Below are positions 1,159 through 20,150 of a stretch of 33,255 nucleotides of DNA, piece after piece. Both the position numbers and the translations under genes were made by a program. The notes under the pieces are model-generated. The model worked only from the letters and a program-made list of their open reading frames with translations, did no database searches and was not told where the DNA came from. Position 1 is the first letter of the stretch. The number at the start of each line of letters is the position of its first letter. Where the stretch lies: positions 1-33,255 of the IMG/VR virus record IMGVR_UViG_3300010885_005209. One strand, 5' to 3'. This DNA comes from a virus.

Positions 1159-2487
1159 TTACTTTGGTATTGAGTAGTAACGGTCACCCGCTTTCACAAT
1201 CTTAGATCCGCGTTCTTCTTCAGCGGCCTCTGCTTTGTGAAATGTTGGGTGACTTTTTCCTTTTAGCACGACATAACTATCTTCTGGTAAACCATGAAGC
1301 ATACGTTCGTCATCCGATGTTGGAGCTACAGAACCCCAATGGCCAGCATTTTCGCCAGTTCCATTGGGTCCCATACCATAAGCTGTGGCTGTTTGATAGT
1401 CATAGTCCTTACCCCGTGGGTTAAATACCAAACCACCGTCTGCGTGACCAATATCTTCCAAGCTACGCAAATATTTATCAGTAACTTGCTGGCTTGGAGT
1501 GGTTCGAACTAAATCATAGTAGCCAGGTTCGCGCCCTTTGAACTCTTTAAATTGATTAATAAAATCTGGTATACCATGTTCTTTCGGCACTGGAGCAAAA
1601 GCTACGCCTTTATCTTCACCTTTTAAAATGTAAGGGAATGCTGAATGCAAATCTGGGCGATGTTCAATTTCATTATTTAAAGTAAACAAACGAGTCCCTA
1701 ATGAATGTGTTGGAGCACCAACAGTCATAGGGTCTGTCATCTCTTGCATAATTCCAGGGTAGTCAATAATACGGCCTTTAGTACCACCAACACCTTTACC
1801 ACTCATTAATGTAGATAAAGCCCCACGACGATTAAATGTATCGCCATATTGTGCTAAATGCTCTGGATTACCAATGTCAAAATTTTCTGGAAACAATCCT
1901 TTAGTTTCTTTTCCAGTGGCCAATGTAGAATTTATTTTTGCTTGTAATTCAGGAGTTAAATTTCCCAATCTTGATTGTCGATTAAATTCATTTGTTAACA
2001 TATCATAAACGTGCTGATTAGAATGGTGCTGTGTTTCGCCACCAATCATGGGAGTCCAAATTGCTTGATCACCAAACTTTTTATTAACGTTAACAATCCC
2101 ACTTGCTGTAGGCTTTTTTCCTACTCCCCATGCTGCTTGAGCTGCGGCGTATTCTGGCTTTTCTAATTGAAATTTTGAAAAACCAGGGCCACCTAAATCG
2201 CCTTCAGTAGAACGCATTCTATCTGATTGAGTTACATTAAGCCATTTACCCTCATGCGGAGCAAGTGCTTCACTAGCTTTTAAAACGTTAGTTGCTTTTG
2301 GTACAAATTTACTAATAGATCCCATTAAACCTGGGACCATATCCATAGCTTCTCTAGCAGCAGATTCATTTGGGGTGTAAAGCCCTTTATCCTTTGAGTA
2401 ACCAATTGCATTATCAGTTACCCAACGCTGGTGCTCTAAGTTAGCTTTAGTTTTTTCTGGCAGCTCAGCGATATAGTCGCGTGCCAT
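1159..2487 (-). CDS. Uncharacterised virion or ejected protein with C-terminal HPTF-type motif
   Basis: 442 residues from an ATG (MARDYIAEL) at 2487; a GTG at 2511 would add 8 residues, and neither start has a strong ribosome binding site. I do not recognise the body of the protein, which is soluble, polar and without membrane segments. Numbered from the GTG, the last ~100 residues carry a HADGGLVF double-glycine motif (G359-G360), a YDYQTATAYGMGP stretch, GHWGS and KGKSHPTF. This order (Y-D-x-x-x-A, GHW, then HPTF) resembles a short module that recurs at protein ends in many tailed phages. It is the last gene of the unit that starts at 13347, after ejection-type genes, so it is probably a virion or delivered protein. 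That role is inferred from position only. Confidence 0.7.
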   Translation of the reverse strand: MARDYIAELPEKTKANLEHQRWVTDNAIGYSKDKGLYTPNESAAREAMDMVPGLMGSISKFVPKATNVLKASEALAPHEGKWLNVTQSDRMRSTEGDLGGPGFSKFQLEKPEYAAAQAAWGVGKKPTASGIVNVNKKFGDQAIWTPMIGGETQHHSNQHVYDMLTNEFNRQSRLGNLTPELQAKINSTLATGKETKGLFPENFDIGNPEHLAQYGDTFNRRGALSTLMSGKGVGGTKGRIIDYPGIMQEMTDPMTVGAPTHSLGTRLFTLNNEIEHRPDLHSAFPYILKGEDKGVAFAPVPKEHGIPDFINQFKEFKGREPGYYDLVRTTPSQQVTDKYLRSLEDIGHADGGLVFNPRGKDYDYQTATAYGMGPNGTGENAGHWGSVAPTSDDERMLHGLPEDSYVVLKGKSHPTFHKAEAAEEERGSKIVKAGDRYYSIPK

Positions 2488-2537
2488 TGTGGACAGGTTT
2501 GGACCCCGCACTGGCCCGACTTTATTGAAAGTGCCAG

Positions 2538-3752
2538 CTATGCTGGCGGGAACTTTTTTGGTTCACCACCTTCCGCCATGTGCCCAGTCATGTCGACATG
2601 GCCGCCTTTGCATAAATACTCAAATTCATCTTTACTTAAACCAGCTGGCAAAGTATAGATCGTATGTAGTTTACGCTTAGGTTCTGGCTTGGGTTGAGGC
2701 GCAACATTACCACCTTTTCTATAGTTCAAGTGGTGTTGCATAATTTCTTTAGCCATTTCGGGCATACTGATACTTCCGCCGTTAGCGCGTTTCTGTGGAT
2801 ATAATCTAGTTCCTTCTAATACACTTTGACCAGGTAAAAGATCACGTTTTGGATTTAATGTAGCGTCACCTAGTTGTGATGGAGATAATGCCATACCAAT
2901 AGGGCCCATAAAACCAGTTGCTAAATCAAATGCAGTGCCTGGCAAATCTGCAGCTGTTGCAGAACCTATCATTTGAGCACCCACTGGAGCCAATCCCAAT
3001 CCAGTTGCAATTGCACGAACTTTTTTAGGCAAGAAGGGTGCAGCACCTGCTAAAACACCAGCTCCAATACTTCCAGTACCGGCGGCAACATCCCCAACTC
3101 CTTCTCCATTTGTTATTTGTTGTAGTCCACTACCAATATCATATCCAGCTAATGCACTACGCAACGGTAATCCAGTGTGTTTCTTTAAATGGTAGCTCGG
3201 TGTTTTAACATAATCTTTTGGATCATATAATCCGGGTTTGGCAGGTGACCCCGGCGTTTTTTCTACATGACTCAATACTGTCTTTCCAGTTGCTGGATCT
3301 ACTTTGTAAATTTCTTTAAAAGCATCTGGAGTAGCCTCTGCAGCACTAATTTTTTTTATTGCTTCCCAAGCCTGCTGTGAATTTTCTACAGGTATGTTAC
3401 TTAATCTTGATAGCTCTTTAGCTGGCATATCAAATTTAGCGCCCAGCTGACTATTGATGTAGTTTTGAACACCCGGATGTGCTGATTTACTATCCAAAAC
3501 ATCATATAACATTTTTGTTTTTTGACCAGTGATTGCAGCACCTGCAGCACCACCCCCAACAATTAATCCAGCTTGATTGGTTGTGTACGGTGACTTTTCT
3601 CTTTTATATTCTGGGCGTTCATTTGAAATTAATTTTTCTGGAACTTCAGTACCCGACAACGCACTAGGAGTAACTGTCGTTGGAACAGCTTGTTCTGAAG
3701 GCTTATGAGTTTGAAGTTCTGACGGAACTTCTTCGTATTGTTTATCTGACAT
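2538..3752 (-). CDS. Putative internal virion / ejected protein with GG motifs
   Basis: 404 residues, not recognised as a named family. The first ~60 residues are hydrophilic and Pro/Glu rich. A short Gly/Ala-rich hydrophobic stretch follows (residues 61-75), and a longer small-residue hydrophobic region spans ~200-290 with GAGVLAGAAPFLP and GLGLAPVGAQMIG, which could interact with a membrane. The basic C-terminal third holds four double-glycine motifs (G325-G326, G347-G348, G383-G384, G395-G396) of the kind seen in other proteins of this phage. The start overlaps the stop of the M15-domain gene by one base (TAATG), suggesting coupled translation. Membrane-active segments and its place after the giant protein fit an ejection protein, but this is inference. 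Confidence 0.7.
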   Translation of the reverse strand: MSDKQYEEVPSELQTHKPSEQAVPTTVTPSALSGTEVPEKLISNERPEYKREKSPYTTNQAGLIVGGGAAGAAITGQKTKMLYDVLDSKSAHPGVQNYINSQLGAKFDMPAKELSRLSNIPVENSQQAWEAIKKISAAEATPDAFKEIYKVDPATGKTVLSHVEKTPGSPAKPGLYDPKDYVKTPSYHLKKHTGLPLRSALAGYDIGSGLQQITNGEGVGDVAAGTGSIGAGVLAGAAPFLPKKVRAIATGLGLAPVGAQMIGSATAADLPGTAFDLATGFMGPIGMALSPSQLGDATLNPKRDLLPGQSVLEGTRLYPQKRANGGSISMPEMAKEIMQHHLNYRKGGNVAPQPKPEPKRKLHTIYTLPAGLSKDEFEYLCKGGHVDMTGHMAEGGEPKKFPPA

Positions 3753-5800: not shown

Positions 5801-5809
5801 AATTATTCC

Positions 5810-6694
5810 TTAATCGTTTCCGTAGTAATACTGACTTGAACCATCTTCGCTAGGTGCCGTTACCTCTTCGTACGGAGAGGCTGGGCTTGGCATGTCGCTG
5901 TTAGTTGGTATTCTGTTAAACAAGTCCATTAATTTAGGACCAACTTGTGTTAAATTACCAAGTCCTAAACTATTTAATACACTAGTGCCTAGTCCAGCTA
6001 CTGCACCAATTTGACTAAACGGAGACATTTGATTTTGCTGTGCTACGAGACCTGGAACACTAACGTCATTAACTAAGTTTGCGTAACTTCCAAGGTTCTG
6101 GAATGGAGCGTTCATTTGAGTATTACCAGCTGTCATTTCGGTGCCCAGTTGTTGGTTAAGTACGTTACCCAATCCAGTGCCCGCCTGTACGCCAGTGGTT
6201 TGATTCTGTAGCGCAGACTGCATTTGCTGAGCCGATAAGTTAGCGAATGCGTCAGCTTTAGCTTTATTAAGCGCAGTTTCTCCGCGCAAACTGCCAAATT
6301 GACCAGACGCAATATTAGCACCTTGAACCGGGGCTGTATAATTTGGCATCAATTGGTTTAGCTGTTGGTTTTGTGCTTGAAACAATCCGCCCATTGCCGT
6401 GTTGGTATTTGGGGTTACTTGGCCGTTGGCTCCAGTAATCCAAGGATTAGCCGCACCCTGAGCAATTTGACCTAACGCGCCTTGGGCTTGGTTAAATGAA
6501 TTATTAGGGTTTTGCAAAGTATTAATAGCCTGCTGACCCACCGTATTTTGAAAAGTTGGCGCATCGGCAAGTGCCTGATGTGCTCCACTTACAATACCTT
6601 TTTGCGCGTCAGTATACCACGCTGGTAATGTAGTTTCTTTTACGTATGTATCGGTTAAAAAGTTATTTAAACCAGTTGATCCTGTTGTTGCCAT
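5810..6694 (-). CDS. Putative internal virion (ejection) protein
   Basis: 294 residues, rich in Gln, Asn, Ala and Gly, with an unstructured acidic C-terminus (…SSQYYYGND). The middle (about 130-190) is a helical stretch around FGSLRGETALNKAKADAF, of a kind I associate with internal virion proteins of podovirus-like aquatic phages. A hydrophobic Gly-rich segment lies at about 225-250. Its place between the giant 2217-residue protein and the M15-domain protein matches the slot of small ejection proteins (T7 gp14, P22 gp7 type), although there is no residue match I can show to those proteins. The start overlaps the upstream stop by one base (TAATG). Confidence 0.65.
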   Translation of the reverse strand: MATTGSTGLNNFLTDTYVKETTLPAWYTDAQKGIVSGAHQALADAPTFQNTVGQQAINTLQNPNNSFNQAQGALGQIAQGAANPWITGANGQVTPNTNTAMGGLFQAQNQQLNQLMPNYTAPVQGANIASGQFGSLRGETALNKAKADAFANLSAQQMQSALQNQTTGVQAGTGLGNVLNQQLGTEMTAGNTQMNAPFQNLGSYANLVNDVSVPGLVAQQNQMSPFSQIGAVAGLGTSVLNSLGLGNLTQVGPKLMDLFNRIPTNSDMPSPASPYEEVTAPSEDGSSQYYYGND

Positions 6695-9600
6695 TATGCT
6701 CTCACTTTACGTTTTGCTTCTAATAAGTAACCTAGCGCACCCTTACTATCTGGTGGCAGTCCATTTTTATTTGCACGGGTCTTGTGCGATCTAATTGTCT
6801 TTAAAAATTCATCAAGTATAGATGCACCGCTGTCATTACTTCCATTGCCTAAAGATGATACCACATCGGCAGGTATTACAAACTCGCCGTTTGCTAACAT
6901 TGCTGGAATGCTATCACTAGTTCCGTCACCGTCACCTTGAACGTAACGATTTTCCATGGCGTTTAAACCACCTTCACTAAAGAACTGTGGGTTGTGGTTT
7001 ATAACTTCTCCGCCAGTACTTAGCGCTGGTGCGTTAGCCATTGTATTTAATCCAACAAAAGGCTTATGAAATGAAAATTGCTTACCCTTCATTTTGGTTT
7101 CAGCAAAAGACGGATCAAACGCAGGATTTGTATCTTGAGCACCACCAACTGCCATGTGAACAACACCACCCTGAGCAGCGGCTAAAATTTGCTTTAGTAC
7201 TGCATCTGGATTATATATAGGCTGTGCGTATGTATACTGTTGCAAGTCATACTTCCCTGGTAAGGCAGGATCTGTGGCCTTACCTTTAATAAAATTAGAA
7301 ACCGGAGAGTATGAAGCGTCACCTGGGCCGACACTCATATTTGAACCTGAGCTGGCACCTGCAGTGTTTGAACTAGAAGGATTCCCACCAGTTGCTAACC
7401 GCATTAGGCCACCTTCTTTAGCGGCTTTTAGTTGCTGTTCTAAATCCATTGGTAAAAACGGAGGGCTTATATAATTTTCCATAGGTATCACATTACTTGG
7501 TTTAGTTGAATCAATAACACGCATTAATTTGTCTAAAGGCAGTGCGTGCTTTCTACCTTTTGTAAAGTCTGCTATTAAATCCGGGGGAACTCGTTTTTTA
7601 AACTTACCCTTATCCACTGGTTTCTTCTTTATCGGTGGAACTAATGTTGGTACGTTTGTCTTTGGCCCTTTTGACGGTTTTGTCGGGTCTTCCGGTGTAA
7701 CTATAACAGGTGGGCTTATTGGTTCTATACTCGGTGGAACTAGTTCTAACGGCGGTTTAACTTTCGATGGCGGATTAATTGATGTAATAACCGACGTCGG
7801 TGTTAGCGGGTCCAACACAGCAATATCCACTGGCACAGGTGTTGGGCTTACTGGCTCTAATTGTGTTAAGGTTTGTGTCTGAGGCTGTATTTTAGTTAAA
7901 TCTTTTAATGCAATATCCGTTTTCGTTGGATTTTCTGTTGCAAGTTGTGTTGCAGTCTGCGTTTGCGGCGCTGTTATAGTACTTGTCAATGACCGTGGAT
8001 CGGTAATTGTTTTTAAATTTGCGTCTGTATCTGTTACGGTCTGTGTAACCGGTTTTCCGTAAATCAATTCTCCGCGAGTCTTTGTTGCTGTATCTGTATC
8101 CGTCTGCGTATCTGTCTGTGTATTAGTTTCTGGTGCTGTTAAATCCGTACCAAAAAGAGTATTTTTGTTAAATAGTCTGTTAATGTCTGGTTTTTCAGCA
8201 AATGGCAATCCCTCAGTTTTTTGTGTTTCTGTGCTTCTTTGCATTTGAGGCACTAAATCATCATCACCCAATTTAAGACCAACCAAGTCGTTTAACGTTT
8301 TTTTAATATCTTCTATTAAAACTTGGTTGTGCTGTATGTCGTTTTTATTGCTAGTGGGAGTTTCACCAGAAGATTTAACAGAAGTAATATTACTTCCAAA
8401 ATGAACAAATGGATTACCCCTTGCTTCACTGTCTGAATTTAATATTTCTACAGGAACCATACCTACTTTTGGAGTTGTTTCGTATGACGCTGTTCCTAAT
8501 TTAGTTCCCGCTTTTAATGGGCCATAATCTTTTGTTAATTCAACCGATGTTTTTCCAGTGGAATTTCCTTCTGAGTCTACTTCAAACGTAAATTTTACGC
8601 CCATATCTGGGTTTTGAAAATACCCCCCAACGTTATTAACAGTCGTCGGATCCATGAAAACAGTTTTTGAAGACCTCGGCTGAGTTTCTTGCCCAGTACC
8701 CGGCATATTGGAAGGTTCTCTAAATCCTACTGTAGTTCCGTCTGAATACTGTGAGTATGTAGACCCACGTGATGTTTCAAACTGGTAAGTTGCACTACTT
8801 GAAGTTTCAATTACTGGGGTGTGTGTTGCCAAAGCTCCAAACACGCCAGAAATAGTAATATCATTTCCAGCGGCGTCAGTTCCCAATACTTTATTAGGAT
8901 CTAACTTTCCTGCTTCCGTAGTGATGTTGTTATTAATTTGAGTTACCAACTCAGATCCAATAGTTTTAATCGCCATTGAATTTGCCTGGTCTGCAGGAAT
9001 ACCAGTTTGTTGCAACGTCTGCGAAATTGTATCTATTGTATTTTGAACATTAACCATCTGTTCAGCAGAAGGTGCTGGTAATAATCTCTGCGGCCCTTCT
9101 AATAACTTAGGCGCTTCCCAAGAAAACTGGCTTTCAGTTTTCGGTGGTGCTAACTTTAAAAATTGATTTGTGTCTACTTCAGCTTTTGAATTTGCAAAAC
9201 TTGCAATAACAAGTTGGTTAACTGCTGAAACAGCGCTAATTGGTGCATCCATGGCGGCATTAGTATTCATCTTATTAAGATTAAAACTAAAATTAGCCAT
9301 TGAATCTTTTGGATCGCCAGCAACCACAGCAATATCGCGTACTCCGGTATTTAGGAAAGAACGGGTCCAAGCCCCAACATACGCAGCTGTGGCAAGTCCT
9401 GCCATTCCTTTTGTAGTGAACTCTACAATATCTCCAGAAAGTTGACGCATGATAGCTGCATCAACATGGCCCATGGTTGCTAAAGTTATGAAACCCTGTG
9501 CTATGCCACTGGCTACTGCAGGCGCAACTGCGTCTTCGTGACTCACCTTTTTAGCTCGTAAATCGTCGTAGGATATTCCCAAACCACCAAGCGTGGCATC

Positions 9601-12600
9601 TAAAGTATCAAGTGCCAACTCTGTACCGATTGCAATTCTTAATGCGTTAAAACTTCCAGCAATCTTAGCGAAAAACCCAGCGGCCCCAGCTATGCCCATA
9701 AACATTGTGTCTTGAAGAATTTCTGGGCCAGCTATTTTAACAAACGCGGCGGGATACTGTAAGTACGCCTTAATTGCCATTAATTCTTTTGTGCCCGCTG
9801 GTGCGTCTTCCACCATTTTCCTAGCAAGTGCGTAACCATCGTCCATTGCTTTTATTACAGCTGGGGGCACATTTTTATTAGCAAAATCATTAACTGCTTT
9901 GCCTGCCAAATACATGTCATTTTCTCTGCCATATGGTGAAATTAAAAGAGCAGAAAAATTTTGTATTTGTTGACCTATCATGGTAACCGCAGCCCATTGC
10001 ATCACACCGGGTGCGTATTTAGCCACATCAACAAGCGCGTCCATTACCTCTTTTGCACCGGTTAAAATATTTGGTTGTCCCGGTTCCGCGTTAGGTGATA
10101 TAAAACTTTCCATTGACTTTTGAACAGCGTCAAACGTTGGAACACGGCTTTTAATATCTTCTAAACTTGGTAACTCTATTGCTGAAATATTTTTAGCTAA
10201 ATTGTTTGCAGATGATTCTACTGTATTAGAAAGCCTATCAATAAATCGTTTTGTGCTGCCCTCAAACATTGGGGCTGTGTCCTTAGCAAAATCTATAGCC
10301 TCTTGTAACGTCCTAGTTTTTGGTGTTAAACCTTCGCTTAAAACTTGCATAGCCGACTTAGGCGGCGCTTCTGGTGTAGCAGCAGAAGGAGGCGGCGCTA
10401 AGGCAGTTGTGTACTGTTTTCCGTTCCATTCAAACGCTTTAGCACCAGATGCCCTAGCTTCTTTAAACGCATCACCAAAATTGTCCGCAGTAGATACAAT
10501 TGTCTTATCTTTTGAAACAGAACCCGTTGATATATAATTAGTATAGGCGTCTGCTTTATCTTTAGGAATTTGGTATAAATCTTGCAAATTACGAGAAATA
10601 TCAGTTTTTGATAATCCTTGAGCTTGCATTTCTTTTGTAACGTATTCTAAATTCTTTTGGTTATCGCCAGTTAACAATTTTGCAGCATTTAAAACACCAA
10701 TTGGGTCACTAGAATTATTTGCTAATTTTTCTATTACATTGTTAGCAACAGTATTTTGGTAATACCCTTCTGCTGTTTTTGTGTCTATATTATATATAGC
10801 TGCTAAATTAGATACAATATCTTGTCTTGGTATGTTTTGGTCAACCATTTCATTGGTAACAATCCGCATATTTGAAATTGGATCACCAGTCCAATTATTT
10901 TGTGCTGCAAACATACCCAATGGATCTTTAGATGCATTTACGTATGGATCAACAAGACCGCGTTGTAACACCGTATCTACTGCACCGCTAGTAAGTCCAA
11001 CATTTTCTGTAAAGTTAGTTGGGTTTAAGGCGGCACGCTCAGCAGCAACTTCTCTTGCAGTATCAATAAAAAATCCAGCCACTAAAGATGGCATGTTATT
11101 CATCACTGCAGTTTGTACGTTTTGACCTTTTAACAAAGCGCTTGTTGCTATTTGACCTGCGGCCTGTGCGGCTCTTATTGCTGCCTGTAACGCATCTGGG
11201 TTTATTTGCTTAACTATGTCCCCTGCGTATTGCCCAACGCTACTAGCAGCTAAATTAGTAAACAACTCTGTCATGAAATTTTCTGAGCTTATTTTTCCAG
11301 CTACTACTGAAGCAAAAGTCATTGAAATTGTTCTGCCAATTACATCCTGTACATTTTTAGTGGCTTCTGCAAAACTAAATGCTCCCGGAGGTATTCCCAT
11401 TGCATCTGTTATTGACTGTATAGTAGCCTCGCCAACAAGGTTGGTTGCTACTTGACCCACTCCAGCGCTTACTAATGAACCCATACCACCAGTTACCGCG
11501 CCTATGATAGCACCCTTAGCAGCTGCTTGTGCTATGTCTCCACCGGTGCCTGCAGCCATTATTGCACCTGTAGCCGCCATTGTCATTGCCGTCGTTGCAG
11601 CTGCTGCGGCGGCAGCTCCTGCGGCACTAGTTCCAAATGCCGTTGCAAGTGCGGGTCCAAATTCGGCGGACACAACCGGGCCCATTGCCCAGCCAACAGA
11701 GGCCATAACAATTGCAGACGTTATTTGGAAACCAATTTGGTTTAAACCAGTGAAACCACCTGGGTCTTGTGGTGTAATATCTTGAATTGTAATTGGTAAT
11801 TTTGAATCTTTAGTAAACAGTAAGTTACCAGTTTCTTTATCTACCAAGAATTCAGGCGTAACTATTGGAATTCTAACACCACCACCAAGATCAATTGAAT
11901 CTTTTCCACCATACTCACCACCAGAGTACACCGTATTACGATAACCCATTCGTTGGTTTGCAATACCAGCGGGGCTAGTATAAGAGGACATTGCGGGCAT
12001 AGCAAATATTCCGCTATCACTAACAACAACTGTTTCACCAGTTGGGGTTACGTAGACCTTATAGTCTCCAGTAACTCCCATTTCACGGGCGCCTCTTGCA
12101 GCTAAATTAGTGTAATACTCGTTGCCCTTCATATCCGGTGTTACTGGTGTTGCACCTGCAGTTACCTTATCAATAGCAAGTTTATTCATTTCTACTTGTT
12201 TTTGATACGCTTCTGAATCTGGTCCGTTTACTGCTTTTTCTCTATCACTTGTTGGGTTTCCGTCAGCGTCTCTCCAAAGATAAATATGGTTAGTTGATGT
12301 TAACTGACCAGTTTCTGGATCATACTGTGCTGCAGTTGGAAGCTCAGAATACTTTATTAATTTACTTTGATATTCGTCACTATTTATAATACCGGCTTTA
12401 ACCTCTTCAGGTGTCTTGTCTTTCCATGTATCTAATCCGGTTTGATCCGCTGGACGGTCTAAGTAATATTGGTAAAGTGCGTTCACATCTGTCGGATGTG
12501 GCATTGACTTATACTCATCACTGGCCATAATACCTGCCGCGACTTCCTCTGGTGTTTTACCAGCCCATGCAGCTATTTCTCCTTGGCTTGGGGTGCGGCC

Positions 12601-13347
12601 AAGATTGTTCCTATAAAGATAGCTTGTAACAACAGGCGCAAATTCTGCGCTTGTTATAATTGATTGTTTAATTTCATCAGGTGTTTTACCAGCAAAAGTA
12701 GCTAAAGCTCCTGCATCTGGATTACGACCTAAGTACTGGTTAAAAAGTGAAGTTGTGTTATATGTTGAATACTCTGGACTGGCTTTAAGCGCATTGGTAA
12801 CATCTTGCGTTGACATATTAGCAAAAGTTTGTGCACCAGATTGATCAACATTTCGACCTAAATATTTTAAATAAAGCGCATTTAAATCTGCAGTGTCACC
12901 TTGGCCAGGACCAGTTTGAACTGGTGTGGCTGCATTTTGTGATGGTGTAATATTAAAATTAGTGTCACCAGTTGGCGTTATGGGGTTTCTTGATGCATAT
13001 TCACCACTGTTTAAAATACCCTGAAGCACTGTGTTGTAGTCTTGACCAGTCCAAGTAGAAGCACCAGATTGGTCAACTCCACGGCCTAAATACTGTTGGT
13101 ATAGCTGATCTAATCCTGCTTGGTCAACACCACCACCTCTATTTGTATCGTATACTTGAGGTGGACTAGTTAAGCTGTTGTCACCACCGCCACCGCCACC
13201 ACCACCACCGCCTTGATCTGGAGCAGGGCCAGTTTGAATTGGCGCGGCATTATTAAATTCAGGAGGTGCAGCTTCAACCGTTACAGAGCTTTCCGCTGGC
13301 GCGTCGTCTACCCAAGTTGCACTGTCTCCGCTATCTACCCAACCCAT
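6694..13347 (-). CDS. Giant multidomain virion protein with DUF4214-like repeats
   Basis: 2217 residues, first gene of the unit behind promoter-like element A. Domains in order: acidic N-terminus with a run of ten Gly (46-55); five DUF4214-like repeats (about 77-119, 153-195, 198-238, 240-281, 287-328), each with a Y-L-G-R / D-x-x-G core and ending in (S/A)xE(Y/F); a very Ala/Gly-rich hydrophobic region (about 530-640) typical of membrane-inserting segments; long helical stretches with more hydrophobic patches; a Thr/Gln/Asp then Pro-rich disordered region in the last third; six double-glycine motifs from 1979 to 2127; and a C-terminal GTSDSIPAMLANGEFVIP block (2142-2159) common near the ends of phage tape-measure proteins. 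Size and position suggest the large ejection protein of a podovirus. A tape-measure protein is the alternative, but no long-tail genes are present. Confidence 0.75.
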   Translation of the reverse strand: MGWVDSGDSATWVDDAPAESSVTVEAAPPEFNNAAPIQTGPAPDQGGGGGGGGGGDNSLTSPPQVYDTNRGGGVDQAGLDQLYQQYLGRGVDQSGASTWTGQDYNTVLQGILNSGEYASRNPITPTGDTNFNITPSQNAATPVQTGPGQGDTADLNALYLKYLGRNVDQSGAQTFANMSTQDVTNALKASPEYSTYNTTSLFNQYLGRNPDAGALATFAGKTPDEIKQSIITSAEFAPVVTSYLYRNNLGRTPSQGEIAAWAGKTPEEVAAGIMASDEYKSMPHPTDVNALYQYYLDRPADQTGLDTWKDKTPEEVKAGIINSDEYQSKLIKYSELPTAAQYDPETGQLTSTNHIYLWRDADGNPTSDREKAVNGPDSEAYQKQVEMNKLAIDKVTAGATPVTPDMKGNEYYTNLAARGAREMGVTGDYKVYVTPTGETVVVSDSGIFAMPAMSSYTSPAGIANQRMGYRNTVYSGGEYGGKDSIDLGGGVRIPIVTPEFLVDKETGNLLFTKDSKLPITIQDITPQDPGGFTGLNQIGFQITSAIVMASVGWAMGPVVSAEFGPALATAFGTSAAGAAAAAAATTAMTMAATGAIMAAGTGGDIAQAAAKGAIIGAVTGGMGSLVSAGVGQVATNLVGEATIQSITDAMGIPPGAFSFAEATKNVQDVIGRTISMTFASVVAGKISSENFMTELFTNLAASSVGQYAGDIVKQINPDALQAAIRAAQAAGQIATSALLKGQNVQTAVMNNMPSLVAGFFIDTAREVAAERAALNPTNFTENVGLTSGAVDTVLQRGLVDPYVNASKDPLGMFAAQNNWTGDPISNMRIVTNEMVDQNIPRQDIVSNLAAIYNIDTKTAEGYYQNTVANNVIEKLANNSSDPIGVLNAAKLLTGDNQKNLEYVTKEMQAQGLSKTDISRNLQDLYQIPKDKADAYTNYISTGSVSKDKTIVSTADNFGDAFKEARASGAKAFEWNGKQYTTALAPPPSAATPEAPPKSAMQVLSEGLTPKTRTLQEAIDFAKDTAPMFEGSTKRFIDRLSNTVESSANNLAKNISAIELPSLEDIKSRVPTFDAVQKSMESFISPNAEPGQPNILTGAKEVMDALVDVAKYAPGVMQWAAVTMIGQQIQNFSALLISPYGRENDMYLAGKAVNDFANKNVPPAVIKAMDDGYALARKMVEDAPAGTKELMAIKAYLQYPAAFVKIAGPEILQDTMFMGIAGAAGFFAKIAGSFNALRIAIGTELALDTLDATLGGLGISYDDLRAKKVSHEDAVAPAVASGIAQGFITLATMGHVDAAIMRQLSGDIVEFTTKGMAGLATAAYVGAWTRSFLNTGVRDIAVVAGDPKDSMANFSFNLNKMNTNAAMDAPISAVSAVNQLVIASFANSKAEVDTNQFLKLAPPKTESQFSWEAPKLLEGPQRLLPAPSAEQMVNVQNTIDTISQTLQQTGIPADQANSMAIKTIGSELVTQINNNITTEAGKLDPNKVLGTDAAGNDITISGVFGALATHTPVIETSSSATYQFETSRGSTYSQYSDGTTVGFREPSNMPGTGQETQPRSSKTVFMDPTTVNNVGGYFQNPDMGVKFTFEVDSEGNSTGKTSVELTKDYGPLKAGTKLGTASYETTPKVGMVPVEILNSDSEARGNPFVHFGSNITSVKSSGETPTSNKNDIQHNQVLIEDIKKTLNDLVGLKLGDDDLVPQMQRSTETQKTEGLPFAEKPDINRLFNKNTLFGTDLTAPETNTQTDTQTDTDTATKTRGELIYGKPVTQTVTDTDANLKTITDPRSLTSTITAPQTQTATQLATENPTKTDIALKDLTKIQPQTQTLTQLEPVSPTPVPVDIAVLDPLTPTSVITSINPPSKVKPPLELVPPSIEPISPPVIVTPEDPTKPSKGPKTNVPTLVPPIKKKPVDKGKFKKRVPPDLIADFTKGRKHALPLDKLMRVIDSTKPSNVIPMENYISPPFLPMDLEQQLKAAKEGGLMRLATGGNPSSSNTAGASSGSNMSVGPGDASYSPVSNFIKGKATDPALPGKYDLQQYTYAQPIYNPDAVLKQILAAAQGGVVHMAVGGAQDTNPAFDPSFAETKMKGKQFSFHKPFVGLNTMANAPALSTGGEVINHNPQFFSEGGLNAMENRYVQGDGDGTSDSIPAMLANGEFVIPADVVSSLGNGSNDSGASILDEFLKTIRSHKTRANKNGLPPDSKGALGYLLEAKRKVRA

Positions 13348-13378
13348 TTATTAACCTTTTTAATGCACAATTGTTATA

Positions 13379-13415: not shown

Positions 13416-13418
13416 TTT
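13394..13418 (-). terminator. Intrinsic terminator after the 83-residue protein gene
   Basis: A perfect 9-bp inverted repeat (AAATAGGGC / GCCCTATTT) with a 7-base loop, followed on the minus strand by a T run. It begins within the stop codon of the gene ending at 13417, and the TAGGGCG box of element A forms one arm of the hairpin, so terminator and promoter-like element are interlocked. Confidence 0.75.
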
Positions 13419-13668: not shown

Positions 13669-15806
13669 TACGGTCTTTCGTCGCCGTACTCTGCAGTAAT
13701 TAGCAAACGACCCATTTCGTAATTGCCATCAATATCATTAGACTCAAACTTTAATCTAATTTCACGATGTTCAACACGCAAATCAATTTTGCCAGTGTCA
13801 GCATCAAACGCATAGGGGCCAGAATCTTCAGTAGTGCCACGCGCAAATTTGCGGCCTAAGATAGTTAGATTTATTTCACCCGATTGTACAAAGTCTGGCT
13901 CAATACGACGCATGTGCATGCGGCGATTAGCGCCCTCTGGGGCATCTTGAGATGGTGTGCCACCAACCCAGCTAATGTCACAAGTTGTAAAGCTAGAAGT
14001 TACTGCTGTTTCGGCAATATATGAAACTTCATTTAGACCAAACTCATGCTGCCATAATGGATAGCCACCAGTAATACCGTAGACAGTACTACCAAGAGCC
14101 GGGTACGGGGACAGTGGTTCATCTAGTGTAATTCTAGTAACACCAGGCGCTGGAACAAAAGCATTAAAAATGTGTACACTAGTTAATACTTTATACACAG
14201 TGGCCGATGGGCTTTGTGATAAAGTTAAATAGTTTCCCGGAGCAAATGTATTGGTAACGTCACCGTCGATGTACACCTGAGACGATGTAGGAGCTGGCTC
14301 ACTAGCGGGGTTTGTAATGGTTGTAAATGCTTGACTGTAGGATACGTTATAGTCCCAACCAGCCCAAATAGGTGTTGGAAAAATCTCAGTAGTCCAACCA
14401 CAAGAACGTCTAGCACCATCGGCTTCGCCAGCGTCATACCAAAGTTTATCTTTTACGTTGTAAATAATTGCGTCAGTAACTTCTGTTGCGCTGCCCCTAG
14501 GATAAAAGAACCAGATTTCATTGTAGCGTGGTACCTTAGTAGCCCATACTTTTTGGCGCTGTACAAAGTTCATGTTATCAAGCAGCCAGTTTATGTTTTT
14601 ATCATTGGCTAAAACACTTACTACGCCGTTGTACTGATAAAAACGGTCAACGCCGAGCCAATAGTACACACCGTCCATCTCAACTACTGCAGATGAAGAC
14701 ATAATAGAAATCTGGCTAGAAATAATATCGTAACGCCAATATAGCGGGGCGCTACCTGTGAACGATACGCGAATCAGTGAGTCAGTGGCCCAAAACAAAC
14801 CGGATGGTGAGTTTGTACCGCCTCGAACTGGCACGCCTTTAACAATCTTGGAGGAAGACATGTTGACTTGGTTGGCTGTTGCGCCGTTCCAATCGCTTAG
14901 TGTTTGACTTCCATAAGTAGATTCCACATGATTGTTGGCAATATAACCGTTATCACCATACACAAAAATATAAGGATAGAGTACACAAACTCCACCGGAA
15001 ACGCTGATCGGTCTGTATGTAGGGTTTTGACCCGTTGTATCAGCCAAGCCATAAAAGTTCCAAATGCCCGGCGCATCTTCTGTAACGTTACCATAAAGGA
15101 CCTGAGAAGGAACTCCGTTGTCAATGTTTGCTAAGTTTAAACCGGGATGAGCTAATACTTTTAGCTCTTCACCAGATGGGGAGTACTGTAAATCAAACTG
15201 CCATAAATGGCGGATGTCATAAGAAAACGTATCGTTTGCAATCCAAACGTTTGTTGGTGTTCCGGTATACGCTGGTGTAAATGTTACTGTCGTTACCGGC
15301 GATGCAAATGTAGGAGTTCCTACTGTTGTATAAATAGTAGGATTAGCTGATTGATCAAATATAACTTGAGTGCCAGCTGGGTATACTGAAGAGTAGTCAA
15401 CGATTGGTACGGCTGTGCTAGTTAACTGAAACGTAGTTGTAGAGCCGCCAGTTGGAACTTGCTGTGCGTAACCTTGATTAATAACAGCTGGATAGGGGCC
15501 ACTACCAACACCGAATGTTGTGCCAGTTGTAAACACATCAATACCACCAGCGTTACCAACATAAATATAGTTAATGCCGTTAAAGGCGTTGGTGACCATG
15601 CCGCGAGGAATACCATTAAACGAGCCAAACAACTGACGATAACCGCCCATTTTCTTTGGTGTGCCACGTTGAAAACGGCACCACTCTCCGTCACTAAATT
15701 CACGTGACTCAAAGATTGTACCGTCACGTTTAATACCAGGTTCTACACGAAGGGTATAAACAACGTTGTACTGTTGTGGTGCTGATTGTACTGGGTTGTC
15801 AGCCAT
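13668..15806 (-). CDS. Tail nozzle / DNA stabilisation protein (P22 gp10- or T7 gp12-like)
   Basis: 712 residues, dominated by beta-strand patterns. The N-terminus has a REFSDGEWCRFQRGTPKKMGGY segment spread over residues ~35-56, with the CRFQ-x-G-x-P-x-K-x-GG signature of phage tail stabilisation / nozzle proteins. Repeated blade-like strands follow (for example VVEMDGVYYWLGVDRFYQY and EIWFFYPRG), fitting a beta-propeller hub. An inserted Thr/Pro-rich domain lies at about 105-190 and another near 510-590. The C-terminus has a conserved-looking RRMHMRRIEPDF stretch and a strand-rich end. Its place after adaptor-type genes supports a role as the ring or nozzle closing the tail. The exact homologue cannot be decided from sequence alone. 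Confidence 0.65.
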   Translation of the reverse strand: MADNPVQSAPQQYNVVYTLRVEPGIKRDGTIFESREFSDGEWCRFQRGTPKKMGGYRQLFGSFNGIPRGMVTNAFNGINYIYVGNAGGIDVFTTGTTFGVGSGPYPAVINQGYAQQVPTGGSTTTFQLTSTAVPIVDYSSVYPAGTQVIFDQSANPTIYTTVGTPTFASPVTTVTFTPAYTGTPTNVWIANDTFSYDIRHLWQFDLQYSPSGEELKVLAHPGLNLANIDNGVPSQVLYGNVTEDAPGIWNFYGLADTTGQNPTYRPISVSGGVCVLYPYIFVYGDNGYIANNHVESTYGSQTLSDWNGATANQVNMSSSKIVKGVPVRGGTNSPSGLFWATDSLIRVSFTGSAPLYWRYDIISSQISIMSSSAVVEMDGVYYWLGVDRFYQYNGVVSVLANDKNINWLLDNMNFVQRQKVWATKVPRYNEIWFFYPRGSATEVTDAIIYNVKDKLWYDAGEADGARRSCGWTTEIFPTPIWAGWDYNVSYSQAFTTITNPASEPAPTSSQVYIDGDVTNTFAPGNYLTLSQSPSATVYKVLTSVHIFNAFVPAPGVTRITLDEPLSPYPALGSTVYGITGGYPLWQHEFGLNEVSYIAETAVTSSFTTCDISWVGGTPSQDAPEGANRRMHMRRIEPDFVQSGEINLTILGRKFARGTTEDSGPYAFDADTGKIDLRVEHREIRLKFESNDIDGNYEMGRLLITAEYGDERP

Positions 15807-17065
15807 TAAAACGTTCCGCCGCTAATAAGTGCTGCTGTAAACGTGGCTGGTGTAGATATTTGGGGATCAAATGGATTTGAGTTGTCAATGTTAATCATCT
15901 CAACGCCGTTTGCTGTTAAGCCAAGCACACCAATATTGGCCAAGTACATGCCAGTGGTGGTGTCATTTAAAAATGAAAATGACGGTGTGGCAGCGGCACC
16001 ATCGTTTGCAAAAAATGCCGTTGTGGCGCTTTGAGAAATAACATATAAGTTATTACCATCACTTAACACTAAAACAACCGAACCAGGGGTTACTGGAGTT
16101 GGTGGTTGAGATGTGCCCGATACTTCAAAAAACAGATTGTATGGGCCTAGTGTATCATTAGCCAGAATATAAATCTGTGTTGTTGCAGGCAATATAACTG
16201 TTAAGTCAGTTGTACGAGTGCCTGATTGTGCAACATAAGTTTGAATAATTGGTGCATAGGATACCAAGCTAAATGTAGCACCCACAATGGAGTCAACGTC
16301 GTAAGACGCTGATGTAAAGGTTACGTTTGATGGTGTTGCAAGTCCAACGGTAAAAAAGTTACCCGTGGATTGCTGGAACATAATAATACCTGAATCGCCC
16401 GGATTAACGGTAAGATTAGAGATATTATTTATTTGGGAAATGCCGTTAGGCACAATGTTTAACGCGCCAGTTCCGTTGTTACGGAAAGAGATAAACCAAC
16501 CCGCTGTTAATCCCGCCGTCGCTGGTAGGTTAAACGTGCCGTTGCCACCAGTCCAAACAAAGGTTGTTGCCCTGTCTGTGTTTAACGCAGTTGTTGTGGT
16601 GGAGATTGTTTGAACGTTTTGGGTAACGTTGAGCTTACCAGAAAGAGCAGCTAATCCGTAACCAGCCAATGTGGCCGCGTCAGCAGATGATGTGCCAGTG
16701 CCAAACGTAACGTTTTGCCAGACACCTGCTGTGGTGCTGTTATCAGAAAGATAAAAATAAACAGATGTGCCAGATGGTATAGATACAGAAGAACCACCGT
16801 CAAAGTCATTTACAAAGAATGTTACGGCACCAAAGTTACGGAACAAAATGTCTATACCAACAGAACCTTGTTGTGCGTTTGGTAATGTTATATTAAGCCC
16901 TGCGCCATCGGGTGTGCAGTCCATAATGCGGGCTGCAGGAACCTGAGTTGGGTTTATAACAAGGGGCCAGTATAAGTCTACATCTGCATCAAAATTAAGG
17001 TCAAAGTATGATACATCAGTTTGTTGGATGACGTCCCCAGTAAACGGCGATGTGTATGTCGGCAT
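15806..17065 (-). CDS. Tail fibre or tail-associated beta-structured protein
   Basis: 419 residues, Thr/Asn/Gly rich and beta-rich throughout. Repeated units around GWFISFRNNGTGALNIVPNG (about 190-210) and similar strands suggest a repetitive beta-sandwich or beta-helix. Near the end, NDTTTGMY…GVLGLTANG matches a short motif that is common close to the C-terminus of phage tail fibres. It overlaps the nozzle gene start by one base and follows the adaptor gene, so it may be a fibre fixed at the tail vertex, separate from the main fibre cluster at 22212-31729. The substrate is unknown. Confidence 0.65.
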   Translation of the reverse strand: MPTYTSPFTGDVIQQTDVSYFDLNFDADVDLYWPLVINPTQVPAARIMDCTPDGAGLNITLPNAQQGSVGIDILFRNFGAVTFFVNDFDGGSSVSIPSGTSVYFYLSDNSTTAGVWQNVTFGTGTSSADAATLAGYGLAALSGKLNVTQNVQTISTTTTALNTDRATTFVWTGGNGTFNLPATAGLTAGWFISFRNNGTGALNIVPNGISQINNISNLTVNPGDSGIIMFQQSTGNFFTVGLATPSNVTFTSASYDVDSIVGATFSLVSYAPIIQTYVAQSGTRTTDLTVILPATTQIYILANDTLGPYNLFFEVSGTSQPPTPVTPGSVVLVLSDGNNLYVISQSATTAFFANDGAAATPSFSFLNDTTTGMYLANIGVLGLTANGVEMINIDNSNPFDPQISTPATFTAALISGGTF

Positions 17066-17068
17066 TTA

Positions 17069-17689
17069 TTAAGGCTCCTGTACAGTCGTATTTCTATCAA
17101 TACGACGTGAATTGTCTTCTTTCTTAAGCGCAGATAATGAATCTGTGTAGTATGTTTTCCAGATTGGTAGCTTATCAATTGCCTTGAGGTAGCCTTGGGC
17201 CTGTAACAGTGCACCAAATAACATTGCTTGGGGACATTGTTGTGTAAACAAATTAGTTTGATTGGCTGTATCCAATGGCTGAACCAAGCTGTAATAAATA
17301 ATTTCTACAGGATATGAGGCATCTGGAACTGGTGCAATAGCCCAGTTGTTGTAGTCGTACTCAGCGTAATATTTTGGTTGACCGGGATCGGATTCAGATT
17401 GATATTGGGCCACATAGTCCTGTGAACGTATTAGAATTGGCTTACCGTTTACCTTCATGGAGACAGTTTTTCTCCAGCGAGTTGGCTTTTCAAGAATGTC
17501 TTGGGCGGCTAGTATATTGGTTTCAACTACAATTAACTGTAGCAGTGTCTTTAACTCAGAGGCAATTGCAGACTCAGCTAAACCAATTAAGGCCGGGATC
17601 TGGGCCACAAATTCAGCGTCGTCGCGCTCCATGTAGTTGATTATATCAGCTACTAAGTTGTCATACGTCATTACGTAAGCGGCTGTCAT
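17069..17689 (-). CDS. Head-tail adaptor protein (SU10-adaptor / gp4-like)
   Basis: 206 residues. It begins with a helical segment (MTYDNLVADIINYMERDD) and an AESAIASELKTLL helix, followed by strands ending in RSQDYVAQYQ and YYAEYDYNNWAIAPVPDASYPVEIIYYS, then a C-terminal helix. This helix–beta–helix order and the A-P-x-P-x-x-x-Y-x-(V/I)-x-(I/L)-x-Y-Y pattern are typical of phage connector adaptors that form a ring below the portal. It lies between a second connector-like gene and tail genes. I am fairly sure of the class but not of the named family. Confidence 0.7.
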   Translation of the reverse strand: MTAAYVMTYDNLVADIINYMERDDAEFVAQIPALIGLAESAIASELKTLLQLIVVETNILAAQDILEKPTRWRKTVSMKVNGKPILIRSQDYVAQYQSESDPGQPKYYAEYDYNNWAIAPVPDASYPVEIIYYSLVQPLDTANQTNLFTQQCPQAMLFGALLQAQGYLKAIDKLPIWKTYYTDSLSALKKEDNSRRIDRNTTVQEP

Positions 17690-18768
17690 TATCGTGTGTA
17701 GTAAGAGATATTAGGTTGGAAGTAGATTGGTGACTTGTCACGGTCTTCTTCTTCAAATTGGGTGCGTAAATCTAGCGCCATCTTTTCCAAATAACCAATA
17801 CGCGCCATATCTACACCGGGTAATTGCATAGACAACTTGTGTGATAACGCTGCTTGGAAGTAAGCAATGGCGCGATCCGGCATGTACAACTCATTTGTTA
17901 GTGATCCGACGTCCTGTGGTTGACATTCAATAATCAATGAGAATGCTTGGAAGTTATTGTTTGGAACAGGCCATAGATACATCTCTGGGTCGATCTGACG
18001 ATTGAACCAGTATTGTAGTGAGCGTTGGCTTGGGAATTGCTTGTTAGGTAAGGAAAAGTAATCGGTACGATTGAGTCGTGCCATTGGGATTACTTGTTGT
18101 GACTGAGCAAATTGAATTGCACGCATTGACATAGTAGAGCCAACGGTGCGGTTGTTTAGGCGATAATAGTTAAACGCCTGAGTAGTGTTAATGCCATAGT
18201 ACTGCCATTGACGATCAGCTAATGTAACTGTTGGGAATGATTCCCAAGTAGTCCAAGTGATGCCGTCATCACTTACCTCGAAATCCAAATCATAAGTAAT
18301 ACTGCCAAGAGGAGCATAAGCATTAAAGCCAACATAGAATAACCTCGTCGCTTGAGAATAAGCTGCACCAAAATAGTTATCGAGTAATGTACTGGTTCCG
18401 TACTGATTAAGATCAGCGTTTGCACTTTGATCAAACATTGGAGGAACTGTTGTATTACTTACCGGCAGTGTGTCGGAGAACGTTGGATTAATAATGTAAA
18501 TCCAGTTTGCCTCTAAAACATCAACGCAGTTGATTGGCATTGGAAGTACTTGCTGGTTTGTTTGAGCACCTAGAACCACAACCTCTTGTAGCCAGATATT
18601 AATGCCACGGTTTACAGAGTTTTGAAGCACATAAAATAATGCTTGTTTTCCAGCATCAATATATTCTGGGGTGATTTCTTCTGCTGTCTTACCAGCATCA
18701 CGAAAAGCATACGAGATCAACTGATCTACGTTGATCTTTGTTTGATTATAGGTGCCAGAGTAGGACAT
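17689..18768 (-). CDS. Connector / tail accessory protein with discoidin-like insert
   Basis: 359 residues. The N-terminal ~80 residues are helical (VDQLISYAFRDAGK…PEYIDAGKQALFYVLQN), like tail accessory proteins that bind the portal; the C-terminal part (~225-359) has QRSLQYWFNRQIDPEMYLWP and a helix around PDRAIAYFQAALSHKLS, much like other adaptor folds. Between them (about 110-225) is an inserted beta-sandwich resembling an F5/8 type C (discoidin) domain: FEVSDDGITWTTW followed by strands and YYRLNN. The insert could point outward and bind sugars. The gene overlaps both neighbours by one base (TAATG). The connector role is inferred from fold pattern and context. Confidence 0.65.
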   Translation of the reverse strand: MSYSGTYNQTKINVDQLISYAFRDAGKTAEEITPEYIDAGKQALFYVLQNSVNRGINIWLQEVVVLGAQTNQQVLPMPINCVDVLEANWIYIINPTFSDTLPVSNTTVPPMFDQSANADLNQYGTSTLLDNYFGAAYSQATRLFYVGFNAYAPLGSITYDLDFEVSDDGITWTTWESFPTVTLADRQWQYYGINTTQAFNYYRLNNRTVGSTMSMRAIQFAQSQQVIPMARLNRTDYFSLPNKQFPSQRSLQYWFNRQIDPEMYLWPVPNNNFQAFSLIIECQPQDVGSLTNELYMPDRAIAYFQAALSHKLSMQLPGVDMARIGYLEKMALDLRTQFEEEDRDKSPIYFQPNISYYTR

Positions 18769-19118
18769 TATTTTTTATTTCCGCGTTTTGTTTTTCCGCC
18801 TTTTTTAAGCAGTAACAAATTGCCACGTATTTGTGGGGGCGCCATTTTTTTTAATTTTCCATCGACAGGAGAAGTCATCATGTCAGTTGGTTTTTTATAT
18901 GGCATTTCCACTGGTTCCATAATAGTATTATCTGGAGCACCCATAGCCCGATTTAAATTAACATCTGGTGTAGCTGGGCGTGGAGCTCTTTCAAACGCCG
19001 TGGGTTTACTAGGATTTTTTTTAAGATAAGCAGTAAGGTCATCCATAGTAACATCGCCACCGGCTTGATAGTGTTTACCTTCACAAGCCATCTTGGTGTT
19101 TTGTTTAAAGTCTTTCAT
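18768..19118 (-). CDS. Small basic protein with double-glycine motifs
   Basis: 116 residues, Lys/Pro/Met rich, with no membrane segment. Two double-glycine motifs are seen: HYQAGGDV (G20-G21) and LLKKGGKT (G107-G108), the latter next to a very basic C-terminus. The middle part is Pro rich and probably disordered. It is one of three small basic genes between element B and the connector genes, and starts one base after the preceding stop. Function unknown; nucleic-acid binding or virion scaffolding are possible. Confidence 0.65.
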   Translation of the reverse strand: MKDFKQNTKMACEGKHYQAGGDVTMDDLTAYLKKNPSKPTAFERAPRPATPDVNLNRAMGAPDNTIMEPVEMPYKKPTDMMTSPVDGKLKKMAPPQIRGNLLLLKKGGKTKRGNKK

Positions 19119-19119
19119 A

Positions 19120-19287
19120 TTAACGTCCTCGGCCTGCGGCCCGTTTCATTACTTTATTAGGTAGCTTGTTGGATGCAAAGCCCGACTTAACAAACTCTTT
19201 GCCAACCTTTTTAGGAATGCCTAAGGTGCTCTTGCCTTCAGCTGCGGCATACATAGCACCTTGTTGTGCCTTTGATTTAATTGGCAT
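19120..19287 (-). CDS. 55-residue basic protein with KSKAQQ motif
   Basis: A short gene encoding 55 residues, starting [20 protein letters not shown] and ending in a Lys/Arg-rich RAAGRGR. The [22 protein letters not shown] pattern is one I recognise from small phage proteins, close to the N-terminal motif of DUF3008. It fits exactly between its neighbours, with 2 bases to the upstream stop (TAATCATG) and 1 base to the downstream start (TAATATG), which supports it as a real gene. Function unknown; strongly basic, so DNA or RNA binding is possible. Confidence 0.75.
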
Positions 19288-19289
19288 GA

Positions 19290-20150
19290 TTAACAGCTCT
19301 TTTTAACTTTACCACCACGTTTTTGCATTGGCACGCCAGCGTTTGGTCTCATTTCTGGGTGATTAGCATATTCTTTCAGTATGTCTTCCTGTGACTGCAT
19401 TTGTGGCAATCCTTTAGCTTGTGCGGCGTACTGCATATCTGCGTTACTAAGTCTACCACCACCTAATCCTGCTGCCACACCAGATTGCATGGCGGCACCA
19501 CCAATACCACCGGCGCCGGCGCCTTGCATTGCTGCAGCGGCCATTGCTTTTTTCTTGGCAATCATGTCCATACGTTCTTTTGCAATACGGTTCTGTTCTG
19601 GTGTGCCCATTACATTGTCACGTAACGCAGTTCCAGCGGAACCAATAGCATTTCCAGCTGCCCGCATTGGGTCAAGTAGCGCATTGGCATCTGCCATTGG
19701 GCCACTCATACCACCATCGGCCATTTTCTTTACAGACTTACCACCACAAAATTTAGCGGGTGTGTTTGCAGGCTTACCAACGGGGGCGCTTTTTGCCGTT
19801 GCCTTAGTTGGCTTAATTTGTTTTACTTTTTGAATTGCCTCTATGTCGCCAGATTTTTTCTTGGCTTCGTATACATTAGTTACGTTACCACCAGCTTTGT
19901 ATTTTTTAACGGTTCCGCAGTCTTTCTTAGCACGGCCACCTTTACGTAATTTGGATAGGTCGGTCTTTTCACCAGGGTGCTCTTGCTTATCATGCATGCC
20001 GATTGCTTTTTTAACAATCTTTTTATCTAGAGCAGTATCAGCTTCATCTACCGTTTTACGATCGCGCTTAGTAAAGTTTTTTACTTCACGTTGTACTGAG
20101 CCGCCTTCTTTAAAGCACTGTATTTTAGGTAATTTGGTAAAGCCTTCCAT
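19290..20150 (-). CDS. Lys-rich protein with six double-glycine motifs
   Basis: 286 residues, first gene behind element B, with an SD-like GAGG about 8 bases before the ATG. The N-terminal half is very Lys rich; the C-terminal half is Ala/Gly/Met rich and contains a Gly-rich stretch around [11 protein letters not shown]. Double-glycine motifs occur at residues 16-17 (FKEGGSV), 71-72 (LRKGGRA), 87-88 (YKAGGNV), 136-137 (FCGGKSV), 146-147 (MADGGMS) and 279-280 (QKRGGKV). It has four cysteines, at 12, 78, 135 and the last residue. I know no function for it. Position before the connector genes suggests a virion or assembly protein. Confidence 0.65.

Follow-up and report, generated by a model that had tools for sequence, protein, structure and literature searches.

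A short motif built around two adjacent glycines (GG) recurs in the proteins encoded by a 33-kb IMG/VR virus record (IMGVR_UViG_3300010885_005209; 33,255 nucleotides, analysed over its whole length and here called the window), and among the relatives of these proteins it is both strongly enriched and conserved in position. We tentatively propose, as a reading that may well prove wrong, that it serves the phage DNA-ejection apparatus as a short linear tag for docking. The consensus, derived from the relatives, is Phi-[KA]-x-G-G-x-[V/M/I/T], with M, Y, F or L at position −3 from the first glycine, K or A at −2, and V at +3, where A, T, M and I also occur; lysines are found at −2, −1, +4 and +5, and often follow the motif. 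An earlier, sequence-only reading had defined the motif by a basic or small residue, the GG and a Val or similar residue; each string that it quoted from the 286-, 116-, 404-, 450- and 2217-amino acid (aa) proteins is present where it placed it, and the hydrophobic residue at −3 is a feature as strong as those it named. No description of such a motif was found in the open-access literature searched, subscription papers lying outside that search. The genes of these five proteins and of the 55-, 206- and 359-aa proteins introduced below, with every feature located in them, lie on the minus strand of the window.

Frequency, conservation and gene position of the motif

Within the window, a strict regular expression, Phi-[KA]-x-GG-x-[VMIT], set later from the relatives, finds three copies (vs. 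0.51 expected, p=0.017); a broader one, shaped after the five named proteins had been seen, finds 14 (vs. 4.1 expected), 13 of them in those proteins. Composition shuffles for GGx[VIT] gave p=0.0015, 0.008 and 0.02 for the 116-, 286- and 404-aa proteins, respectively, and the 2217- and 450-aa proteins were not above chance. Taken alone, the window set is suggestive, without being conclusive, and the decisive evidence for the motif comes from the relatives rather than from the window. Among 1,208 non-redundant proteins of an initial set, biased towards the motif, there were 152 strict copies (vs. 12.6 after shuffling and 8 for the reversed motif); an unbiased sample of 1,303 non-redundant proteins, from loci fetched by the motif-free 206- and 359-aa proteins, held 249 (vs. 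10.5 after shuffling, with a maximum of 14, and 15 for the reversed motif). The recurrence noticed in the sequence-only reading thus exceeds random expectation. Neighbouring copies are also regularly spaced: 91 pairs of GGs stand nine residues apart (3.6 expected), and this spacing is found in 8 of 21 motif-masked families (2.25 expected).

The positions of the GGs are conserved for the 286-, 116-, 2217- and 450-aa proteins; the relatives of the 404-aa protein are near-identical copies only. The 286-aa protein (19290–20150), which is lysine-rich, mostly disordered and ends in KKSC, carries six motifs and has at least 43 non-redundant relatives, and across 43 of these its motif glycines are mostly 79–100% kept, against a column median of 28% and an average of 33% for single glycines. 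Invariant are glycines 16–17 in FKEGGSV (residues 13–19; 20094–20114; profile p<0.0001) and 71–72 in LRKGGRA (residues 68–74, at the end of an HDKQEH-type module; 19929–19949). Glycines 87–88 in YKAGGNV (residues 84–90; 19881–19901; 79% and 93%), 146–147 in MADGGMS (residues 143–149; 19704–19724; 88% and 86%) and 279–280 in the C-terminal QKRGGKV (residues 276–282; 19305–19325; 81% and 91%) fall between 79% and 93%, and KFCGGKS (residues 133–139, GG at 136–137; 19734–19754) is a weaker copy, with 26% for its first glycine and 86% for its second. The two non-motif GGs of the same protein (214 and 217) are 16–40% conserved; the GG positions of the motif, then, hold in orthologues. In the basic 116-aa protein (18768–19118), which has a motif at each end, YQAGGDV (residues 17–23; 19050–19070) and the C-terminal tag LKKGGKT (residues 104–110; 18789–18809), the glycines are 100% conserved in six sequences.

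Counted in gene slots from the adaptor gene of the unbiased sample, the motif is present in 61% of proteins at slot −3, 31% at −2 and 9% at −4, in none from −1 to +3, and in 9–32% from +4 to +6; the adaptor and neighbouring tail slots never carry it, and at slots −14 to −6 it occurs in a single one of ~300 proteins. Save for one copy at −9, it is limited to slots −5 to −2 and +4 to +9, so that its carriers are almost only small basic proteins just upstream of the neck/adaptor genes and proteins in the ejection slots. Five more genomes (G004, G005, G006 and G008, which are distant, and the closer G007) all pair small GG proteins with neck homologues, and in the four distant ones a 2217-type C-terminus bearing A-x-GG copies is present as well. 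Among annotated records, the motif is abundant in the Manatee Spring genome ctpbd312, which holds 10 copies (0.6 expected), including one 449-aa protein with seven strict copies, and the Pelagibacter phages HTVC023P and HTVC104P have single copies, by count alone not above chance; they lie in gp43 of HTVC023P (FKRGGDV) and, for HTVC104P, in gp81 (MATGGLM) and a reading frame of 43 residues (MKYGGKV). The most extreme carrier seen is a lysine-rich protein of 449 aa from a spring-water phage with a circular genome (L273:9269–10618), with nine GG copies (seven strict) and repeated stretches.

Carriers of the motif and the genome around them

The motif comes in two subtypes: a lysine type in the 286-, 116- and 404-aa proteins, and an A-x-GG type in the 2217- and 450-aa proteins. 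A profile built from small basic proteins recovered all GGs of the first three proteins save 214 and 217 (per-site p from 0.012 to <0.0001), whereas the 2217- and 450-aa copies reached only p=0.012–0.05 and represent the second subtype; two unrelated window proteins also score at p=0.012–0.05. The 404-aa protein (2538–3752) has four motifs in its final 85 residues, RANGGSI at residue 322 (2769–2789), YRKGGNV at 344 (2703–2723), LCKGGHV at 380 (2595–2615) and MAEGGEP at 392 (2559–2579). In an AlphaFold model of the 286-aa protein (mean predicted local distance difference test score, pLDDT, 58), all motif glycines lie in coil and helices span residues 36–57, 100–110 and 184–212; a second AlphaFold model (pLDDT 51) was likewise poor, and a profile search of the PDB with the 286-aa family gave no match. 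A domain and family scan of the five named proteins (Pfam/PHROG) returned essentially only DUF4214, in the 2217-aa protein.

The median isoelectric point (pI) is 9.9 among small motif proteins and 5.9 among the rest; of the small motif proteins, 44 of 167 (26%) end in Cys, compared with 24 of 1,983 other proteins (1.2%, p=1.7e-34). The terminal Cys codon of the 286-aa protein is at window positions 19293–19295, and overall Cys content is not raised in the small GG-motif proteins. A module of ~40 residues (about 38–76 of the 286-aa protein) forms elsewhere the core of stand-alone 72–75-aa proteins (L067:9989–10216; G005, 34174–34392). Between the two GG genes lies a 55-aa basic protein (19120–19287) of phrog_16759, the phiKZ gp165.1 family; it is itself without the GG motif, and the N-termini of some GG proteins of related phages belong to the same family, fused to GG motifs. 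The family further forms the N-terminal part of larger proteins labelled ‘virion structural proteins’ in PHROG. Searches by tblastn for isolate relatives of the small GG proteins found none for the 286-aa protein, two short motif peptides or L118:12276–12740, where the low-complexity filter of BLAST may hide such proteins, and L114:6776–7366 matched solely through its phrog_16759 N-terminus.

A second C-terminal tag, SSASxRADG[IC]AxKGKTRGK[MFY][CIV]-COOH, terminates a wide variety of small basic proteins (L042:3–695, L024:1411–2073, L038:2616–3275, L114:6776–7366, L105:19550–19864 and L118:12276–12740), coming after a GG in the examples shown; the end of HTVC023P gp51, SRGGGAAVRGMGFKGVF, resembles it. 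Unrelated proteins of 756–987 aa carry the GG tag at their extreme C-terminus. In a near-identical genome (G001), a scaffold-like protein has the string HKEGGKVE (L100:15727–16719), a single sighting that we take as chance.

The 450-aa protein (1159–2511) has two domains, and its GG motif HADGGLV (residues 356–362; 1426–1446) sits at their junction, with the GG at the same place in relatives. The window protein continues from GHADGGLV into a second domain and the L283 relative from AGHAEGGAI into another one; other family members stop directly after the tag (AGHKKGGKIKKAKKK-stop, AGHKKGGKVKK-stop and AGHKDGGSI-stop), so the tag is retained at the domain end whether the next item is a stop or another domain. 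The C-terminal ~90 residues (window 1159–1440; DYDY..GHWGSVAP..) are a mobile domain, found as stand-alone 102-aa genes (L296–L301) and, in L292, as the fusion partner of an LPD38 polyvalent protein.

The 2217-aa carrier is an ejection or tape-measure-like protein (6694–13347), not filed as a tape-measure protein, with N-terminal DUF4214 repeats and a C-terminal GG cluster (KEGGLM at 1977, LATGG at 1984, AQGGVV at 2058, MAVGG at 2065, STGGEV at 2110 and FSEGG at 2123). The doublet KEGGLMRLATGG (7378–7422; GGs at 1979 and 1987) is 80% conserved in five full-length relatives; the doublet AQGGVVHMAVGG (7135–7179; GGs at 2060 and 2068) aligns with A-x-GG repeats; and in the pair LSTGGEV and FSEGGLN (6961–7023; GGs at 2112 and 2126) a 31-sequence alignment (A3) shows FSEGG invariant and the first GG invariant or nearly so. 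These copies are of the A-x-GG or S-x-GG form, and the last, invariant one precedes GDGTSDSIPAMLANGEFVIPADVV; the C-terminal element, GDGDGTSDSIPAMLANGEFVIPADVVSSLG (6847–6936), matches tape-measure proteins.

The two genes by which the unbiased sample was drawn encode a 206-aa protein resembling the adaptor or tail tubular protein A (phrog_2941; 17069–17689), without the motif and with relatives in Caulobacter, Methylophilales and Pelagibacter phages, and a 359-aa neck or tail protein (17689–18768); the neck genes are podophage-type. Beside the adaptor gene, a 419-aa protein (window 15806–17065) ends in ISGGTF, and dozens of its relatives retain GG[TSV][FY] as their final residues, which is a different C-terminal GG tag. 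The 63.7-kb IMG/VR contig G001 (loci L100–L103) is 100% identical to the window, or close to that, across the compared genes. Because its two ends overlap within the 286-aa gene, it is probably a complete circular or permuted genome, and it encodes a terminase, a capsid protein, PolA, a primase, a B12-type ribonucleotide reductase, a sigma factor and a GroES-like Cpn10. Bacterial genomes gave a match in only two small uncultured-bin contigs, and no host is therefore assigned.

Likeness to known systems

Siphophage tape-measure proteins (JBD30 gp46, Douge gp16, lambda gpH, T5 pb2 and Nitrincola 1M3-16) share an element in which a GG is followed by GxGTSDSIPAxLSxGEFV, and the 2217-aa protein is alike: S, D, A, L, G, E, F and V of the element are invariant in the 31-sequence alignment, and the hydrophobic-A-x-GG part just upstream is represented by the invariant FSEGG and the A-x-GG repeats before it. 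The JBD30 protein has GFASGGHIKGPGTGTSDSIP at 1018–1037 and FASGGHI before its element, Douge has YANGGFL, and lambda gpH has FATGGFT and YATGGYV ~120 and ~75 residues before its end; T5 pb2 has AEGG, with the downstream part divergent. The A-x-GG subtype opens the JBD30 segment 1022–1066, which its authors propose to be a hook anchoring the tape-measure protein in the baseplate (PMC11445458); at least 1,059 phage records hold a tape-measure protein that matches the JBD30 form of the element. This part of the finding is thus largely a known tape-measure feature, and what is new is the battery of small proteins, which lack the SDSI/GEFV part and have Lys at −2; unlike the siphophages, moreover, the window phage has podophage-type neck genes.

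For the small proteins, the nearest parallel is with T7. There, loops of gp6.7 bind the portal barrel and the gp14/gp15 core, and gp7.3 has its C-terminal loop anchored in the nozzle and its basic N-terminus around or along the DNA end (PMC11784390). The T7 proteins and the small GG proteins would be alike in being small, basic, mostly unfolded and encoded in the late region, with loops anchored to portal, core or nozzle and a Lys-rich part on the DNA, as described for T7 (PMC11784390); the small GG proteins are indeed small, basic and encoded with structural genes beside the neck genes. Compared by motif alone, however, gp6.7 and gp7.3 lack the strict motif and have only a GGKK near the C-terminus, and the parallel is therefore an analogy rather than membership.

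Other systems share single traits. The capsid-targeting sequence of the T4 internal proteins is N-terminal, present once and removed by the prohead protease. It resembles the GG tag as one short tag common to different packaged proteins, whereas the GG tag is multi-copy and internal or C-terminal (99 of the 328 copies in small proteins lie within 40 residues of the N-terminus), and no prohead or other protease was found in the genes scanned. The RTX nonapeptide repeat, GGxGxDxUx, likewise has a nine-residue period that opens with GG, but the GG tag lacks both the Gly of position 4 and the Asp of position 6 (its position table shows V at +3 and no D at +5), and it comes in two or three copies rather than long arrays. 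Double-glycine leader peptides, the substrates of C39 peptidases, also have their GG in a short motif; the GG tag differs in being internal and C-terminal as well as N-terminal, and no C39 peptidase was found among the genes scanned.

A proposed docking tag and the competing explanations

We reasoned that a docking tag fits the observations because the motif glycines lie in coil, the copies are multiple, hydrophobic residues stand on both sides of the GG, and the motif is confined to neck-proximal and ejection slots. Its carriers, presumably virion proteins to judge by gene position and family, would be a battery of small proteins, rich in lysine and for the most part unfolded, that are made directly ahead of the neck/adaptor proteins, and the C-terminal parts of ejection (tape-measure-like) proteins. 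A hydrophobic residue and a Val flanking a tight Gly-Gly turn could fit a site that recurs on a portal, adaptor or nozzle ring or on a core protein. With several copies to a protein, often at nine-residue intervals, binding to the ring would be multivalent, and the basic linkers between the copies may lie along the packaged DNA. The tag would in this way bring the proteins into the virion and retain them in the portal-tail channel until ejection, much as the T7 loops do. We infer the virion location, the binding partner and the docking function from these features. The common partner or packaging/ejection tag suggested in the sequence-only reading is accordingly supported, if indirectly, by the slots −5 to −2 and +4 to +9, the coil, the conservation of position, the placement at domain ends and C-termini, and the five further genomes marked at the ejection module. 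Several results weigh against the proposal: the match of the 2217- and 450-aa copies to the lysine-type profile is marginal; T7 gp6.7 and gp7.3 lack the strict motif; the JBD30 hook was proposed by its authors on the basis of AlphaFold; modules are shuffled among the small proteins, which makes part of the recurrence a matter of ancestry; and five isolates of the adaptor family (Venkman, Octadecabacter DB2, C72C1, phiM5 and Bradyrhizobium) lack the motif, which is therefore not essential to such tails.

That ancestry could be the whole story, if related small proteins recombined and the GG is the inherited junction of reused modules (HDKQEH, phrog_16759 and the C-terminal RADG-KGKTRGK tag), a flexible hinge and no binding tag; we judge this unlikely, yet worth taking seriously. 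The carriers, described in the sequence-only reading as non-homologous, are so only in part: with the motif masked, 119 of 167 small motif proteins still join one modular cluster, beside ~20 other groups. In favour of the hinge, L114:6776–7366 joins phrog_16759, the HDKQEH module, GG motifs and the C-terminal tag in one protein, and in the 450-aa family the GG stands at a domain end. A sizeable part of the recurrence may thus reflect shared ancestry of shuffled modules. On the other hand, ~20 other masked groups, the C-tagged 756–987-aa proteins and the tape-measure-like proteins also have the motif, and a plain hinge would have no use for a V at +3 and an M/Y/F/L at −3 of this strength, or for the nine-residue spacing. 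Those two positions are equally unexplained if the lysine-rich GG proteins are protamine-like, condensing or coating packaged DNA with the GG as a spacer in basic repeats and C-terminal cysteines as crosslinks. The high pI, the excess of terminal Cys and the lysines at −2, −1, +4 and +5 speak for such proteins, but −1 is often E or D (KEGG, AEGG, ADGG), the 2217-type copies are not basic and the genes sit at the neck and ejection slots, and we consider this account rather improbable.

That the motif marks a site of proteolytic processing, at which a phage or host enzyme would cut during tail or head maturation, seems to us a shade less probable still. The T5 tape-measure protein pb2 is cleaved after R1127, as mapped by mass spectrometry (PMC10038345), two residues before its sole C-terminal GG (VPR|AEGGMM), and lambda gpH has its two copies ~120 and ~75 residues from its end. 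T5 is, however, the single mapped case, with Arg instead of a hydrophobic residue at −3; six sites would cut the 286-aa protein to pieces, and many tags are 5–10 residues from the C-terminus. The phage protease invoked in the sequence-only reading is not supported: a scan of the 20 largest genes that the near-complete relative G001 has beyond the window found no peptidase domain, though a small protease could escape it, and the window itself has only a VanY-type peptidoglycan carboxypeptidase domain, in a neighbouring 682-aa protein. A host protease could still act, given the T5 cut. Chance, or the composition of Gly/Lys-rich proteins, finds some room in the marginal window count (p=0.017) and in the 2217- and 450-aa proteins, which regular expressions do not raise above chance; the counts in relatives, the conservation and the reversed-motif control make it very unlikely, and for the lysine type enrichment and conservation in relatives refute it. 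We regard as practically eliminated a nucleic-acid signal, by which DNA of the AAA-GGA-GGA kind would act as an internal or next-gene ribosome-binding site. K-x-GG can be encoded as AAAGGAGG, but the GG codons are mixed GGT/GGC and vary synonymously, the first Gly is encoded by GGA less often (3%) than glycines elsewhere in these proteins (15%), and of 428 sites no more than 15 contain GGAGG; a Shine-Dalgarno or other RNA-level signal was therefore rejected. Since synonymous codons are mixed and GGA is avoided at the first Gly, selection acts on the protein.

The docking tag could be extended to a general virion or ejectosome sorting code, in which one peptide and one conserved portal-tail partner would load and eject unrelated proteins, the A-x-GG form being the same signal as the siphophage tape-measure GG, across widespread uncultured freshwater (and some marine) phages; we find this extension doubtful. 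Small basic proteins beside phage neck genes are nearly always annotated as ‘hypothetical’, and a short, directional, strongly conserved motif that marks both these and the ejection proteins offers a way to predict which of a phage's proteins end up in the virion and in the host cell. Should the tag suffice by itself, selected cargo proteins could also be loaded into phage particles with it in the laboratory.

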